From a bacterium (GTDB lineage: Bacteria > UBA9089 > CG2-30-40-21 > SBAY01): 6,553 bases of DNA. The stretch lies in assembly GCA_040757115.1 (NCBI GenBank), contig JBFLYA010000211.1, positions 1-6,553 on the forward strand, read 5' to 3'. The position numbers and the translations under genes are program-made. Below the pieces are notes generated by a model, which was not told the DNA's origin, ran no database searches, and was given only the letters and a program-made list of their open reading frames with translations. Shown here one piece after another: positions 1-6,377 of the stretch. How positions within the stretch are numbered: position 1 is the stretch's first letter; each line of letters begins with the position of its first letter.

Positions 1-125
1 ATAAACCATAAACCATAAACTATAAACTATAAACCATAAACCATAAACCATAAACCATAAACTATAAACCATAAACCATAAACTATAAACCATAAACTAT
101 AAACCATAAACTATAAACTATAAAC
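1..125. repeat. Tandem array of 7-bp repeats (ATAAACY)
   Basis: Seventeen complete heptamers ATAAACC or ATAAACT follow each other without a slip from position 1 to 119, then a partial unit ATAAAC ends at 125. Only the last base varies (C or T); the order is C C T T C C C C T C C T C T C T T. The array is cut by the left edge, so its true length is unknown. The 7-bp period gives a stop in every forward frame within about 21 bases, so it is not coding. It runs directly into the repeat arm at 129-213. A comparable position in the second copy of that arm is filled by a looser AT-rich repeat, so the array is probably the inner flank of a mobile cassette lying mostly upstream. Confidence 0.95.
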
Positions 126-128
126 GAG

Positions 129-213
129 TTTTGCTTTTTGGAGGAAATTGATAAAAATAGAGGTTTTAAATACCCGCTTAAAAACTACAGTTTCCTGGTT
201 TTGCAGAACTCTA
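129..213 (+). repeat. Dispersed repeat arm, copy A
   Basis: This stretch is nearly identical to 1538-1622, at a constant offset of 1409 bases. Both copies share a run from GGAGGAAATTGATAAAAATA through the TACCCGCTTAAAAACTA block to a TTTTGCA end sequence, with only a few substitutions (for example CTACAG against CTATAG, and CTGGTTTT against CTGATTTT). The last 20 or so bases are also related, in inverted orientation, to 1037-1058. It therefore looks like the right-hand end of a second member of the cassette seen at 1031-1629. Similarity stops just before TAGGAG at about 214-219, which is also where the ribosome binding site of the protease gene lies. Confidence 0.9.
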
Positions 214-1021: not shown

Positions 1022-1036
1022 CCGGTATTGGGTACC

Positions 1037-1058
1037 AATAGGGTTCTGCAAAATAGGA
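1037..1058 (+). repeat. Left terminal inverted repeat of the cassette
   Basis: Read outward to inward it is AATAGGGTT then CTGCAAAATAGGA. The reverse complement of 1602-1623 reads ATAGGGTT then GTGCAAAATCAGGA, so the two ends match except for one substitution and small single-base gaps. The reverse complement of the end of copy A (about 192-213) reads TTAGAGTT then CTGCAAAACCAGGA, a third version of the same end. Confidence 0.85.
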
Positions 1059-1124
1059 TTTGGGAGAGATAACTGAGAGTTAGACCTGAAATTAGAGATA
1101 AAAATTCAAATATCAAATATCAAA

Positions 1125-1496
1125 ATGCAAAATTACAAATCAAATTTCAAAAAGGACTTCAAGAAAAGACTGTATAACTTTACTCTGCGACTTATAGAAC
1201 TCATCGATAAGTTGCCAAAGGATAGTGTTTCTCAAAGAATTGGTGATCAATTATTACGGAGTGGTACAAGCATCATTGGGAATTATATTGAAGGGCAGGC
1301 GGCGAGTAGTAAGAAAGATTTTACTAATTTCTTTAATACATCTTTAAAGTCAACTAACGAAAGTAAGTTATGGCTTGCATTACTTCGTGATAGTAAACGT
1401 GCTAAACCAGAGGAAGTAGCAGGGTTTCTCAAAGAGTTGGAGGAATTTGGTAATATCTTTGCTTCAAGTATTTTAACGCTGAAAGGAAAGAGATAA
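1125..1496 (+). CDS. Four-helix-bundle protein, 23S rRNA intervening-sequence protein family
   Basis: The product has 123 residues, the usual size for this family (S23/IVP, Pfam PF05635). The hallmark block is RIGDQLLRSGTSIIGNYIEG at 38-57, followed by A-SSKKDF (60-66) and a NESKLWLALLRD helix (78-89). Four amphipathic helices fit roughly 10-30, 35-60, 62-90 and 94-120. Family members form a pentameric basic bundle; Avd proteins of diversity-generating retroelements are relatives. The role of free-standing copies is unknown, though nucleic-acid binding is plausible. The ATG at 1125 is the only Met in the protein and lies inside an AT-rich repeat with no Shine-Dalgarno sequence nearby, so residues 2-10 (QNYKSNFKK) are effectively translated repeat. 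The gene is the only cargo of the 1031-1629 cassette. There is no reverse transcriptase or variable repeat nearby, so a retroelement accessory role is not supported. Confidence 0.92.
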   Translation: MQNYKSNFKKDFKKRLYNFTLRLIELIDKLPKDSVSQRIGDQLLRSGTSIIGNYIEGQAASSKKDFTNFFNTSLKSTNESKLWLALLRDSKRAKPEEVAGFLKELEEFGNIFASSILTLKGKR

Positions 1497-1537
1497 TTTT
1501 ACATTTTGATATGTAATTTTTATATTTGCTTTTTGCA

Positions 1538-1623
1538 TTTTGCTCTTTGGAGGAAATTGATAAAAATAGAGGTTTTAAATACCCGCTTAAAAACTATAGT
1601 TTCCTGATTTTGCACAACCCTAT
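1538..1623 (+). repeat. Dispersed repeat arm, copy B (right end of the cassette)
   Basis: This is the second copy of the arm at 129-213. It contains a perfect 12-bp palindrome, AAACTATAGTTT (1591-1602), which in copy A is AAACTACAGTTT. Its last 22 bases are the right terminal inverted repeat of the cassette. I see no convincing outward promoter: TTGATA at the start of the arm has no good -10 sequence at 16-18 bases. Confidence 0.92.
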
Positions 1624-1635
1624 GGTACCAAAATA

Positions 1636-1643
1636 AAGGAGGT
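1636..1643 (+). promoter_or_regulatory. Very strong Shine-Dalgarno for the 133-residue gene
   Basis: AAGGAGGT is a full-length match to the 16S rRNA anti-Shine-Dalgarno sequence. It ends 6 bases before the ATG at 1650, which fixes that start. It lies just outside the GGTACC border, so the cassette did not supply it. Confidence 0.9.
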
Positions 1644-1649
1644 AATCTT

Positions 1650-2051
1650 ATGGTCGGTTTTTTAGAAATAACTTTAGTCGTTCTTATGTTTGCAACGATA
1701 TTAGTCTGGGCAATTTTAATTACATTTCTCTGGTGGGAATTATTACAGTTGAAAAAGATAAGACAAGAAATGGAAGAATTACCAACTAAATTATCTGAGG
1801 CATTGAGATTTATGGAGGATGCAGATGGGATTTCCAATAATATGAAGGAAGAAGTTATGCCAATGATAATGGGAGCAAGTACTGATTTAAAAATCGTTGC
1901 GGATGATATGCGAACATCGATGGACACTATCGTAAAATCCTTAAAAGACCCACCTCCCTGGCTCAATCAATTAGTCGCCGCAATTGATATGAAACTTGAA
2001 AATAAACTGGGTAAAGTGGAAAAAGGTATTAGTGAGTTATTAAAAAGGTAG
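1650..2051 (+). CDS. Small single-span membrane protein with helical tail, unknown function
   Basis: I do not recognise a named family. The 133-residue product has one N-terminal membrane segment (about residues 7-29, ending FLWWELLQLKK). A long charged helical region follows (33-99), then a PPPW break (101-104) and a short C-terminal amphipathic helix (105-133) with alternating Lys and Glu. The topology recalls DUF948-like proteins (one membrane anchor plus coiled-coil tail), but I can claim only similar architecture. It has no visible catalytic motif. A strong ribosome binding site suggests abundant translation. Without the cassette at 1031-1629 it would start about 35 bases after the M48 protease stop, so the two may be a split operon and this protein may be a membrane partner of the protease; that is inference. 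A weak hairpin follows the gene (2056-2094) without a T-tract. Confidence 0.85.
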   Translation: MVGFLEITLVVLMFATILVWAILITFLWWELLQLKKIRQEMEELPTKLSEALRFMEDADGISNNMKEEVMPMIMGASTDLKIVADDMRTSMDTIVKSLKDPPPWLNQLVAAIDMKLENKLGKVEKGISELLKR

Positions 2052-2132: not shown

Positions 2133-5100
2133 ATGAAAAAAACAATAGATTTTGTCGTCAATAATTTAAAAATTCTCACTCATTATCTAAAAAGAACCGA
2201 AGGAAAAGATTCAATTCCTCTTGAACAAAATGACTTTGACAAACTACTTAATTGGGTTGTTGGGATAGTCGTCATTGGGTTTGTTATTTTAAGTTTCTTC
2301 TTCCTTCATAATGTTACTGTTTTATGGATGTCTGTTTTATTTCTGGTAATTCTTCTGGCGATGCATAATTTTATTCTCCTCAAGGCGCGAAGTGATGAAA
2401 AAATAAGTAACTATCGTGCCGAACAACTCGCTACCCTTCAACAAATATCCTTAGGACTAACCTCTACCCTTCATATGAATGAGATTCTGGAGTTAATTCC
2501 ATCGGCGGGTGTCAAATTAGCCCAGGTAGATGGTTGTTTAGTTAGTCTGGCAGGGAAGATGAAAGAAGACATAATCCCTAAGGCTAAAGAAGGCATTCAA
2601 ACAGACCTGGCACAAATGGAAACCAAAGGAAAGATAAGTAATTGGCTGGTTCAGCACAAAACATCCCTCGCTATCCAGGATTTATCTACAGACCCCAGAA
2701 TGCCTGACTGGGTAAAAAGTGAAGGATTCTCCTCATATCTTGGACTACCACTGAAAGTCAGGGATGAAATAATTGGTGTTTTAGAATTTTATTCTAAAAC
2801 CCATCGTAGTTTCACCACTGAAGAAATAGACTTACTTAATATATTTTCTGCCCAGGCCGCGACCGATTTAGAAAATGCCAGACTTTATGGAATCACTAAA
2901 GATGCTTTACAACGCGAAATTACCAGCTCTATGGCTTTACTCAAAATAGAACAAGCCATTACCACAAAATTCGACCTTAAAGAACAATTAAATTTAATTA
3001 TGGCTGGTGCGATTGACATAACTCTGGCAGAGAAATCTTCTCTCTGGTTAATTGATGAGATTTCAGGAGAGGTTATTTGCAAAGGCACATATCCTCTTGA
3101 GGAAAAATTAGCGAAATCAAGTGTCCGATTCGGTGAAGGAATTACAGGTTGGGTGGCTAAAGAAGGTAAATTACAAAATATACAGGATTTAAGTAAAGAT
3201 TCACGGTTTGTTAATCCATTAAAACAAGACCTTTATTCTCAACTCTCTGTTCCTCTAATGTATAAAGAAAAAACTATAGGTGTGCTCAATGTCTTCAATT
3301 CAAAGCGTGAAGAAGGATTTAATGAGGCAGATGAAAAAATACTTATGGTTTTAGCCTCACAAACCGCTGTCTCCTTGCAAACCATTAAATTATATACCGA
3401 ACTAAAAACCGCGGCTAATGCCCTGTCGGTATTATATGAAATAAGTAAAACTATTAGTGAGGGTAGAGAACTCCAGGAAGTATTAACCTTAATTCTGAAG
3501 AAAGGGAGTGAAATATTCCAGGCTCAACATGGCTCGATTATGTTATTAGATGAATCTTCAGGTGAACTGAGGATTAAAACCGCTGAAGGACTTTCTGAAG
3601 AAATTATTAAACATACAGTTAAAAAACCAGGAGATGGAAGTATCGCCGGTTGGGTGGCAGAGAAAAAAGAACCTCTATTACTTATTGGTAAAGTGGATGA
3701 TGTTCGATTCAAATCAAGCAAAGTAGAAACTGAGATTAAAGATGCTATGTGTGCCCCATTGATTCTTAAGGATAAATTAATTGGTGTTTTTAATATTAGC
3801 AATCGAGTTGGAGCGGGTGTATTTACAGAATCTGACCTGAATTTACTCTGCACTTTAGCCAATGAGGTCAGTATTGCCATTGAAACAGCAAGATTATATG
3901 AAATAATTACTCAACGGGTAACAGAATTATCAAGTTTTTATATTATCTCAACCGCTTTATCTTCTACACTCAGTCTTTCAGAAATCTTTAAAATCGTCAT
4001 GGAAAGAATAACGACAATATTCACAGAGTTTGCCATAAGTATCTCTCTTTATGAAAAGGATAAATTAAAGAGAATAGCCGAACGCGGCTTTGGAGAAGAT
4101 AAAACTTTAGACACAGAGTTAGAATTAGAAAAGGATGAATTAAAAGAAAAACTAAAACCTTTATTTGTTAGTAAAAGATACCTTTGTTTTAAAACAACAG
4201 AAGATATATCCAATTTGAAAATACTGGTTGGGACAGGCAAAATAGAGTATGCTTTATTATTCCCATTAGTGGCAAAAGATAAGGTCATTGGTATTTTAAC
4301 CTTTATCTCGCAAACTAAAGAAGAACTAACGAAAGAAGAGATAAGATTGCTTACTGCCCTTTCACAAGCTACTGCTTCCTCCATAGAAAATGCTAAACTA
4401 TACACTCAGACAACTCGACGATTGCAAGAATTATCAGGGCTACAACAAATAACCAATAAAATGGCATTAACGACAAATACAACCGAGCTTTTAGCCCTGG
4501 CGGTAAATATCATTAATGAAGTCATCGGTTCAGAATTGGGACTTGTATTTCTGTGGGATGAAGACCGTAAGGAGTATATCGTTAAGGTTGGTCAGGGTAA
4601 AAAGAGGGTAAGCGAAGGACTATTTAAAGCACTTAAATTTAAACTGGGTGAGGGTATAGTTGGCTGGGTAGGTGAAAAAGGAGAAGGTGTAATACTTGAT
4701 GATGCCCGCAAAGACCCAAGATTTAAACAAATAGGAGATTTATATATCCGAAGTGTCCTTGCTGTTCCAATCATTAAAGATAATAAACCAATAGGGGTTA
4801 TGGAATTTATAAATAAACTACCCGCAGGTGGAGGATTTTGTAGTGAAGATGAACGAATGGTTTCTATCATCGCTAATCAAACAGCCATTATTTTAAGTAA
4901 TGCTGATGCATTTGATGAAATAAAGCGTCGGGCATTACAACTATCTACGGTTCAAGCAGTGAATAAAATGATTACATCAGTATTTGGTGTGGAGGAACTG
5001 CTAACACAAATCGTCGAGTTGACGGCTAAGGTATTACGAGTTAAAAAGGCAAGTTTATCTTTATTAGAGCCAGATGGTCATGTTAAGTTAGAAGCGGCTT

Positions 5101-6095
5101 ATGGATTAACCTATATGGAACAAGAGCGAGAAGAAAAATTAACACCAGGATTTGGAATTGCCAGTAGGGTCATCCAAACCAATCATCCGTTCTTGATTAA
5201 TAATTTACCAGAAGATACAACCTTAAGCGAGGAGGAGAAAAATATTTATATTGAAAAATCATACCTGAGTGTGCCTCTTAATATTAGAAAAAAGACCGTT
5301 GGAGCATTGACTATTTCATCAAAACTTAATGAGTCTTTCTTTAATGAACAGGATATTGAAGTTTTAACTACTATTTCTGAACAATCATCAATTGTAATTG
5401 AATATGCAAAATTATACCAAAATCTGCAAAGACACAGTATGGATACTTTGCGGACCCTTTCATTGGTAATTGAAACAAGAGACCCGTTCACAAAGGGACA
5501 TTCAGAGGCTGTAGCAAAATATGCAGTCGCCATTGGTAAAGAATTGAATCTTTCTAATGATGCCCTTAAAACATTAGAAGTATCTGCCCTTTTACATGAT
5601 ATTGGGAAGATAGGCATAAAGGAGAGTATTTTACTCAAGACAGAAAAGGAATTGAGTATTGATGAACATCGGGAGATAAGGAATCATCCGTTCCTTGGTA
5701 GTCAAATTTTAAGACCACTGGAATTTTTGAAGGATGTTATTCCAATTGTTTATCATCATCATGAACGATATGATGGCACAGGTTATCTGGATGGATTAGC
5801 CGATGAAAAAATACCATTGTTAGCCAGAATCATTGCTGTGGCAGATACCTTTGATGCAATGACCTCAACACGGGCATTTCGGGAAAGTGTGTCTGATGAG
5901 GAAGCAATAGAGGAATTAAAAGACCAATCCGGGAAACAATTTGACCCAAAGGTAGTCGAGGCTTTCCTGAAAATACATCCCATCCTCCGCAAAGACGCCC
6001 TTGAAAAAGCAAGACGGGAAAAAGAGAAAAAGAAAAAAGAAGTCAAATCAACCACACCAGTAGGTGAACATAAGATTTGGGAAAGATATGAGTAG
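2133..6095 (+). CDS. Membrane-anchored sensor with six GAF domains and an HD-GYP phosphodiesterase domain
   Basis: This 1320-residue protein has two membrane spans (about 41-58 and 62-83) joined by a very short outer loop. Six GAF domains follow, at about 98-250, 272-422, 430-588, 598-757, 767-928 and 936-1096, then HD-GYP (about 1103-1290) and a Lys/Glu-rich tail. Most GAF units end in a helix of the ENARLY type, and most links begin with an LS-x-L-type segment. HD-GYP residues visible are GHS (H1123), HDIGK (1155-1159), NHPFLG (H1185), HHE (1209-1211) and ADTFDAMTS (1237-1245). The family hydrolyses c-di-GMP to pGpG or GMP, and some members act on cGAMP. The signature GYP reads GYL (1217-1219), but all metal-binding residues I can identify are kept, so activity is likely. 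No cyclic-nucleotide NKFDE motif is seen in the GAFs; their ligands are unknown. The ATG at 2133 has no Shine-Dalgarno sequence, but an in-frame stop at 2121 leaves no better start that retains the membrane spans. Confidence 0.95.
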   Translation: MKKTIDFVVNNLKILTHYLKRTEGKDSIPLEQNDFDKLLNWVVGIVVIGFVILSFFFLHNVTVLWMSVLFLVILLAMHNFILLKARSDEKISNYRAEQLATLQQISLGLTSTLHMNEILELIPSAGVKLAQVDGCLVSLAGKMKEDIIPKAKEGIQTDLAQMETKGKISNWLVQHKTSLAIQDLSTDPRMPDWVKSEGFSSYLGLPLKVRDEIIGVLEFYSKTHRSFTTEEIDLLNIFSAQAATDLENARLYGITKDALQREITSSMALLKIEQAITTKFDLKEQLNLIMAGAIDITLAEKSSLWLIDEISGEVICKGTYPLEEKLAKSSVRFGEGITGWVAKEGKLQNIQDLSKDSRFVNPLKQDLYSQLSVPLMYKEKTIGVLNVFNSKREEGFNEADEKILMVLASQTAVSLQTIKLYTELKTAANALSVLYEISKTISEGRELQEVLTLILKKGSEIFQAQHGSIMLLDESSGELRIKTAEGLSEEIIKHTVKKPGDGSIAGWVAEKKEPLLLIGKVDDVRFKSSKVETEIKDAMCAPLILKDKLIGVFNISNRVGAGVFTESDLNLLCTLANEVSIAIETARLYEIITQRVTELSSFYIISTALSSTLSLSEIFKIVMERITTIFTEFAISISLYEKDKLKRIAERGFGEDKTLDTELELEKDELKEKLKPLFVSKRYLCFKTTEDISNLKILVGTGKIEYALLFPLVAKDKVIGILTFISQTKEELTKEEIRLLTALSQATASSIENAKLYTQTTRRLQELSGLQQITNKMALTTNTTELLALAVNIINEVIGSELGLVFLWDEDRKEYIVKVGQGKKRVSEGLFKALKFKLGEGIVGWVGEKGEGVILDDARKDPRFKQIGDLYIRSVLAVPIIKDNKPIGVMEFINKLPAGGGFCSEDERMVSIIANQTAIILSNADAFDEIKRRALQLSTVQAVNKMITSVFGVEELLTQIVELTAKVLRVKKASLSLLEPDGHVKLEAAYGLTYMEQEREEKLTPGFGIASRVIQTNHPFLINNLPEDTTLSEEEKNIYIEKSYLSVPLNIRKKTVGALTISSKLNESFFNEQDIEVLTTISEQSSIVIEYAKLYQNLQRHSMDTLRTLSLVIETRDPFTKGHSEAVAKYAVAIGKELNLSNDALKTLEVSALLHDIGKIGIKESILLKTEKELSIDEHREIRNHPFLGSQILRPLEFLKDVIPIVYHHHERYDGTGYLDGLADEKIPLLARIIAVADTFDAMTSTRAFRESVSDEEAIEELKDQSGKQFDPKVVEAFLKIHPILRKDALEKARREKEKKKKEVKSTTPVGEHKIWERYE

Positions 6096-6107: not shown

Positions 6108-6377
6108 GTAACCGTTCAGGTGGTAATTCACCGCAGAGACGCAGAGGAACAGAGAAGACATGGAAATAAATCAGATAACAGAAAAGATTATTGATGCAAT
6201 CATTATCCTACATAGGACATCAAAACCAAATTTGTTAATCAATCATGATATGTCGGTCCTCAAAAGCTTGCACTGATGAAAATCCGTGATGGAATTCTGC
6301 GTCTGGTAAATAGTTTTTAATTTTTTCTCTGCGTCTCTGTGTCTCTGCGGTGAACGGTTACCGTGGTGAATAGTTAC
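6108..6377. mobile_element. Relic cassette bounded by long imperfect inverted repeats (GTAACCGTTCACCGCAGAG type)
   Basis: The left arm (6108-6156) reads GTAACCGTTCA, then TTCACCGCAGAGACGCAGAG. The reverse complement of the right arm (6325-6377) reads GTAACTATTCACC, then GTAACCGTTCACCGCAGAG and ACACAGAGACGCAGAG. The arms share the same blocks with small insertions and partial duplications of the GTAAC-TTCACC unit, and both borders are GTAAC facing inward. Between them lies a broken GxxExxY gene (6160-6320). I recall such CACCGCAGAGACGCAGAG-type repeats beside GxxExxY genes in environmental bacteria, but cannot check this here. No target duplication is obvious and no recombinase is present. Confidence 0.7.
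6160..6320 (+). pseudogene. Remnant of a GxxExxY-family gene (PD-(D/E)XK-like), internally deleted and frameshifted
   Basis: The ATG at 6160 opens a 38-codon frame beginning MEINQITEKIIDAIIILHR, the typical start of GxxExxY proteins (about 125 residues, PD-(D/E)XK nuclease-like fold). It stops at TGA 6274-6276. In another frame, overlapping that stop, 6276-6320 encodes MKIRDGILRLVNSF, which resembles the usual family ending (K-DGI-R-VN). About 70-80 middle codons, including the expected nuclease core, are missing. The naming motif is also lost: the G-LL-E-Y positions read N, I and D in PNLLINHD. The two fragments in the right order and orientation between repeat arms make chance unlikely. Family assignment rests on memory of typical sequences, not a search. 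The product cannot be functional as a nuclease; a short peptide could still be made. Confidence 0.7.

Follow-up and report, generated by a model that had tools for sequence, protein, structure and literature searches.

The best-described relative of the element reported here lies in the 23S rRNA gene of Coxiella burnetii. It is an intervening sequence (IVS) of 428 nt with a 28-bp terminal stem and an S23p gene whose start codon is preceded by three tandem heptamers (GACAGAT). RNase III excises this element; the S23p open reading frame has been described as decaying (PMC4990558). Genes of this protein family, IVP, also occur in insertions in the 16S and 23S rRNA genes of CPR bacteria (PMC11270868). 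Orphan IVP genes (PF05635) are scattered in environmental genomes and have been unexplained since the family was discovered in 23S rRNA genes. A separate line of work describes tandem heptamers (TAACTGA) between genes in Beggiatoaceae, cyanobacteria and Bacteroidetes, mostly just 5' of start codons, for which horizontal spread is suspected and no mechanism given (PMC4679880); a search of that text by term found neither four-helix bundles nor 23S rRNA mentioned. In the literature that we could search, which covers few subscription journals, no paper ties non-rRNA IVP genes to inverted heptamer arms.

Here, we describe an IVP gene between two protein-coding genes in the window, by which we mean the whole stretch of 6,553 nucleotides analysed (contig C211 of a 4.3-Mb genome in 462 contigs). 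The gene is part of an insert of about 590 bases, the element proper running from about 1039 to 1622, that separates an M48 peptidase gene from a gene of 133 aa (1650-2051). Altogether our analysis supports a model, to which we assign a probability of roughly 0.7, in which the insert consists of two nested units: an outer mini-transposon and, within it, an rRNA-type IVS-like core in which the IVP gene lies between inverted heptamer arms. The features of the locus are as follows.

1..213, plus strand: remnant of another copy of the outer family, just 5' of the M48 peptidase gene
230-1021: M48 peptidase gene, upstream neighbour of the insert
1031..1038, no strand: left copy of the target duplication, GGTACCAA, 8 bp (9 bp allowing one mismatch)
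1039..1061, plus strand: outer end A, TAGGGTTCTGCAAAATAGGATTT, common to dozens of copies
1102..1151, plus strand: left arm of the inner pair, AAATATC x7.4 repeated in tandem at period 7, overlapping the first IVP codons
1125..1496, plus strand: IVP/four-helix-bundle gene, 123 aa (PF05635, TIGR02436, selection, PDB 2rld)
1497..1549, plus strand: right arm of the inner pair, in inverted orientation to its left counterpart (the pairing with the left arm extends over 1494-1549), with period-7 TTTGCTT at 1525-1549
1550..1622, minus strand: outer end B, reading inward TAGGGTTGTGCAAAATCAGGAAACTATAGTTTTTAAGCGGG..., one of 54 B ends in the genome
1624..1631, no strand: right copy of the target duplication, GGTACCAA, with the T at 1623 unpaired
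1637..1652, plus strand: ribosome-binding site (GGAGG) with the beginning of the gene at 1650-2051, directly past end B

The remnant at 1..213 comprises a period-7 array, ATAAACC x17.9 (1-125), followed by an outer end B (about 137-213), as judged by Tandem Repeats Finder and end comparison; only its last ~40 bp are left in the sister species G001. Farther downstream the window encodes a large protein of 1320 aa (2133-6095) with repeated GAF domains and an HD domain at its C-terminus.

The first-pass annotation had read this insert as a transposase-less cassette with 22-bp inverted ends and a possible 6-bp GGTACC target duplication. The list of open reading frames indeed holds no transposase gene inside the insert, and GGTACC stands at each border (1031-1036 and 1624-1629). 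The inverted ends are real (1038-1054 and 1607-1623; 17 bp, 94% complementarity), but they belong to the outer mini-transposon and not to the IVS-like core. The insert begins with TAGGGTTCTGCAAAAT at 1039 and, in reverse, with TAGGGTTGTGCAAAAT at 1622, the ends of the outer family being TAGGGTTCTGCAAAAT and TAGAGTTCTGCAAAAC. Since the direct repeats of this family measure 8-13 bp and lie immediately next to TAGGG/CTCTA, the duplication is better read as about 8 bp (GGTACCAA), and the repeats that flank the window insert, GGGTACCAA and TGGTACCAA, match at 8 of 9 bases.

Copies of the outer family were counted by pattern searches and in sampled stretches of the genome. Allowing up to two mismatches, TAGGGTTNTGCAAAAT occurs at 164 genomic sites compared with 7 for a backward-read control pattern, a frequency far above chance. 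The ends are of two kinds, A (left in the window copy) and B (right), and in the sampled stretches A-B elements are 258-584 bp long and 20 of 28 distinct ones have abutting direct repeats of 8-13 bp, as against 4.1% with swapped flanks. Many further copies carry the same ends with differing flanking duplications, in keeping with the mobility that the first-pass annotation had suggested. A full IVP gene is present in only two of the copies seen, the window copy and C50, and most of the others are internal deletions that retain scraps of it. The shared terminal inverted repeats, the target-site duplication, the lack of an internal transposase and the existence of an orthologous site without the element are those of a MITE or mobile insertion cassette, and we take MIC231 of Bacillus cereus to be comparable to the outer unit. 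The duplication length roughly fits that of IS4/IS231-like elements (10-13 bp). A scan of 11 PF01609 loci in this fragmented assembly for the ends of the family (up to 4 mismatches) found no convincing parent transposase, and in 18 relatives the end pattern retrieved nothing but additional transposase-less copies.

A second mini-transposon family (L013, L023, L027, L028, L075) has the ends GGTGGTGTCT...AGACACCACC, with 8-bp duplications in some copies. It carries the A end of the first family and, in several copies, also the tail of its IVP gene. More inserts are nested within second-family elements at L030, L066 and L083 (CACAGAG-type; heptamer hairpins within hairpins).

The outer unit has a fixed orientation in gene leaders, since a ribosome-binding site lies within 32 nt past end B in 30 of 34 cases and past end A in 2 of 49, a bias that may reflect target choice or selection. 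It could also be taken to mean that the insert was recruited for regulation, with end B carrying a promoter or an RNA switch that acts on the gene behind it. However, no promoter or terminator in the insert exceeds shuffled expectation, and we rejected an internal promoter on that basis; the hairpin at end B, rejected as an RNA element, is not unusually stable (z 0.19). Copies precede unrelated genes, moreover, and the window copy is absent in the sister species. We consider recruitment for regulation quite unlikely.

At the orthologous locus of G001 the insert is absent and the flanks are 97-99% identical, which provides the unit-free site expected of a mobile element, and two additional relatives also lack the insert there. 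Because the spacer in G001 is a different heptamer array (ACC-ATT, with the end TTTACCAAAATAAAGGAGG), this locus is an imperfect pre-insertion site. The duplication argues for gain of the insert, although G001 may instead have lost it. A clean empty site in G001 (L291) was found for another IVP unit, L050, which reads GGTTAA, then the insert from CCCTACAACG to CGTTGTAGGG, then TTAAATAAG, as against GGTTAAATAAG in G001, with a 4-bp TTAA duplication. L050 and a further IVP unit, L051, share CCCTACAACG ends and TTAA/TTTA 4-bp duplications, ends that we take to be piggyBac/IS1380-like. Sister species also have unrelated IVP units, genes and arms alike, at matching intergenic sites (L045/L249, L052/L241), the first of which is flanked by a tRNA gene on one side and a gyrase-A-like gene on the other (names from sequence).

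The single S23/IVP-family gene recognized in the first-pass annotation holds up. Its 123-aa product matches PF05635 (E 1.8e-18) and TIGR02436 (E 4e-23), and the closest solved structure is PDB 2rld, with five chains (E 3e-11). Between the window copy and C50, dS is 0.085 and dN 0.010; across the subfamily pS is 0.88, near saturation, pN is 0.13, and the median dN/dS is about 0.05 in 11 computable pairs. Judged from these substitution patterns, the IVP gene is under purifying selection. Relatives 46-85% identical occur in metagenome-assembled genomes (MAGs) of Stahlbacteria, WOR-3, Phycisphaerales, Omnitrophota, Patescibacteria, Actinomycetota, Ignavibacteriales and others. Most are flanked by AT-rich arms, the one in the leader mirroring the one in the trailer, and in many cases a stop codon borders the unit on one side and the following gene on the other. 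A differing arrangement was seen in G026 (C7, C2, C3, C12), with about 19 short IVP-like matches, several of them in head-to-head pairs ~200 bp apart.

A conserved protein in units of this kind could itself serve mobility, for example as a partner in recombination much like Avd beside a reverse transcriptase, with the heptamer arms as its substrate and the core moving without an outer transposon. Units from other phyla indeed adjoin host genes on both sides, and the flanks inspected show no outer ends of the window's family; the strong purifying selection fits such a role as well. Yet the two well-resolved insertions in this genome, those of the window and L050, have ordinary transposon ends, and the IVP family has, to our knowledge, no catalytic motif. 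Homology of IVP proteins to Avd, an accessory of diversity-generating retroelements (DGRs), is on record (PMC10053308), and points the same way, but overall we regard a mobility protein as unlikely.

The inner unit is defined by a second inverted repeat, missed in the first-pass annotation, that encloses the IVP gene (1102-1151 with 1497-1549). Tandem Repeats Finder gives period 7 for both arms, and folding of the 599-nt insert yields a z of -4.35. To determine how general such arms are, we assembled 127 IVP loci from the source genome, its relatives and MAG contigs, the genomes being drawn from 98 searched, and aligned each leader to the reverse-complemented trailer with swapped unrelated flanks as the null. 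These alignment scores took the place of raw duplex energies, which were dropped as a test of arm pairing because they track G+C, and distant control flanks even scored lower. The median complementarity score is 37 compared with 16 for swapped flanks, and 72 of the 127 loci exceed the swapped-flank 99th percentile, 55 falling below this arm threshold. A locus's own trailer beats every unrelated trailer in 57 of 92 non-redundant loci. When leaders and trailers are permuted over all loci, matched pairs score 40.4 and permuted pairs 18.4 (20000 permutations, maximum 21.4). For the subfamily of the window alone the values are 40.5 and 32.7 (maximum 37.6). Complementarity of the arms is thus kept while their sequence drifts. 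Wider windows of 320 nt weaken the signal (28 of 121 above a higher threshold).

These results bear on a competing account, that only the mini-transposon matters, the IVP gene being a chance passenger and the inner arms nothing other than the usual intergenic repeats of a genome in which repeats abound. Heptamer arrays free of IVP genes do abound in this genome (as at 1-125 in the window) and in the sister species (L288), and IVP genes or remnants of them occur in this genome within no fewer than four sets of outer ends (TAGGG.., GGTGGTGTCT.., GTAACTATTCACC.., CCCTACAACG..). In G003, the outer ends of the window's family enclose other, unrelated inner hairpins (L283, L277), and taken together these combinations show that outer and inner layers assort independently. 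Inverted period-7 arms, however, are specific to IVP genes: none of 92 other open reading frames of the same loci has arms above threshold, nor does any of 30 PIN-domain genes taken from this set of genomes. They also extend beyond the genus, where 27 of 58 IVP loci are armed; 19 of the armed loci show period 7, and 15 of 30 genomes are represented. A chance passenger is thus very unlikely in our view.

In the arms of 67 armed units the excess is +0.28 at period 7, +0.25 at 14 and at most 0.03 at every other period. Of 65 arms on each side, 51 on the left and 55 on the right have 7 as their best period, compared with 7 of 50 control segments and 5 of 65 shuffled arms. The heptamer itself varies by locus, with TTTAGTC, GGATAAG, AAGTCGT, TCGATGC, GTAGAGA and GCAGAGG among the examples. 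The inverted period-7 arm signature of IVP genes is common, not universal.

The main rival holds that the arms are mutational: slippage would create the heptamers, template switching would keep them complementary without any RNA function, and the IVP gene would merely tolerate or favour such sites. Arm sequences that vary by locus with complementarity kept are consistent with it, as are hairpins that lack an open reading frame and matching IVP units whose repeat number is altered between sister species (L043/L250, L044/L258). What it leaves unexplained is why PIN-domain genes are free of arms and why the period is 7 at IVP genes and 8-9 at genes of another family, GxxExxY (TIGR04256). We consider a purely mutational origin fairly unlikely.

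GxxExxY genes (L316-L340) have at least 40 matches in the genome and inverted arms above threshold in 14 of 24 cases, with a repeat period of 8-9 in a small sample of 17; within the limits of that sample, the difference from IVP suggests that gene family and repeat period are linked. The window holds a decayed GxxExxY unit at 6111-6363, where a broken open reading frame beginning MEINQITEKIID is enclosed by inverted arms with 8-bp repeats (TCTCTGCG) and by outer ends of GTAACCGTTCA; each of the unit's two ends shares about 96% identity with a portion of intact GxxExxY units (L316, L318).

We return to the two-layer model, and envision a scenario in which the outer unit, a mobile insertion cassette, is moved in trans by a transposase, yielding the 8-13 bp target duplications, while the inner unit presents the IVP gene as a loop between inverted tandem-heptamer arms, as in 23S rRNA intervening sequences. 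Transcribed in an operon leader, the arms should pair into an extended stem, a substrate that the RNase III of the host could cut, and we propose that such cutting would let the insert cost the host gene little. The IVP protein, kept by selection, probably acts either by binding to the stem or by aiding the spread of the unit. Capture of IVP units by ordinary mini-transposons offers a plausible means of spreading.

The core thus looks like an rRNA-type intervening sequence outside rRNA, captured here by a mini-transposon. The first-pass annotation had proposed that an IVS-type unit lives here outside rRNA, and the idea is independently supported by the heptamer arms around many IVP genes and by the same parts in the Coxiella IVS (PMC4990558). 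The presence of IVS-like units outside rRNA in many lineages would explain the scattered orphan IVP genes. With arms described both within rRNA, in the published Coxiella case, and outside it, orphan IVP genes and intergenic heptamers become one testable system, and inverted heptamer arms provide a sequence signature for locating further members. More tentatively, at somewhat less than even odds, IVP genes with inverted tandem-heptamer arms could be a general, overlooked class of mobile elements in which the arm sequence is free and period 7 and complementarity are kept. The rRNA IVSs would then be the few members that landed in rRNA, the heptamer repeats of Beggiatoaceae and cyanobacteria would be members without an open reading frame, and GxxExxY units would form a parallel class of 8-9 nt, a parallel suggesting that repeat length is set by the encoded protein or by a partner of it.

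How does the unit compare with the systems already described? DGR accessory Avd belongs to a homologous four-helix-bundle family (PMC10053308), but the IVP protein is a weak match to the Avd model NF033474, scoring 19 bits against a cut-off of 80, and the four window genes scanned include neither a reverse transcriptase nor template and variable repeats, so that the locus does not qualify as a DGR accessory. Like MITEs and mobile insertion cassettes such as the qnrD cassette (PMC3913671), the outer unit combines inverted ends, a target duplication, a passenger gene and many deleted copies with the lack of a transposase; it differs in that the passenger is an IVP gene within inverted heptamer arms of its own and in its strong orientation bias upstream of ribosome-binding sites. 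Unlike the heptamers of the Beggiatoaceae type (PMC4679880), those of the window type form inverted pairs around IVP genes. None of 20 IVP loci tested lies in rRNA, and we therefore rejected these loci as rRNA insertions; what connects them with rRNA IVSs is a common gene family and a common anatomy rather than an observed jump, and the window unit, lying between protein genes, is not a 23S IVS though it is built like one. The closest likeness in construction is to the Coxiella 23S IVS (PMC4990558). Both loop a gene for an S23p/IVP-family protein between terminal inverted repeats, complementary ends that form a stem around it, both place heptamers right before its start, and both are of similar size, whereas the window unit stands in the leader of a protein gene, uses another heptamer, is nested in a mini-transposon and carries an IVP gene under purifying selection.
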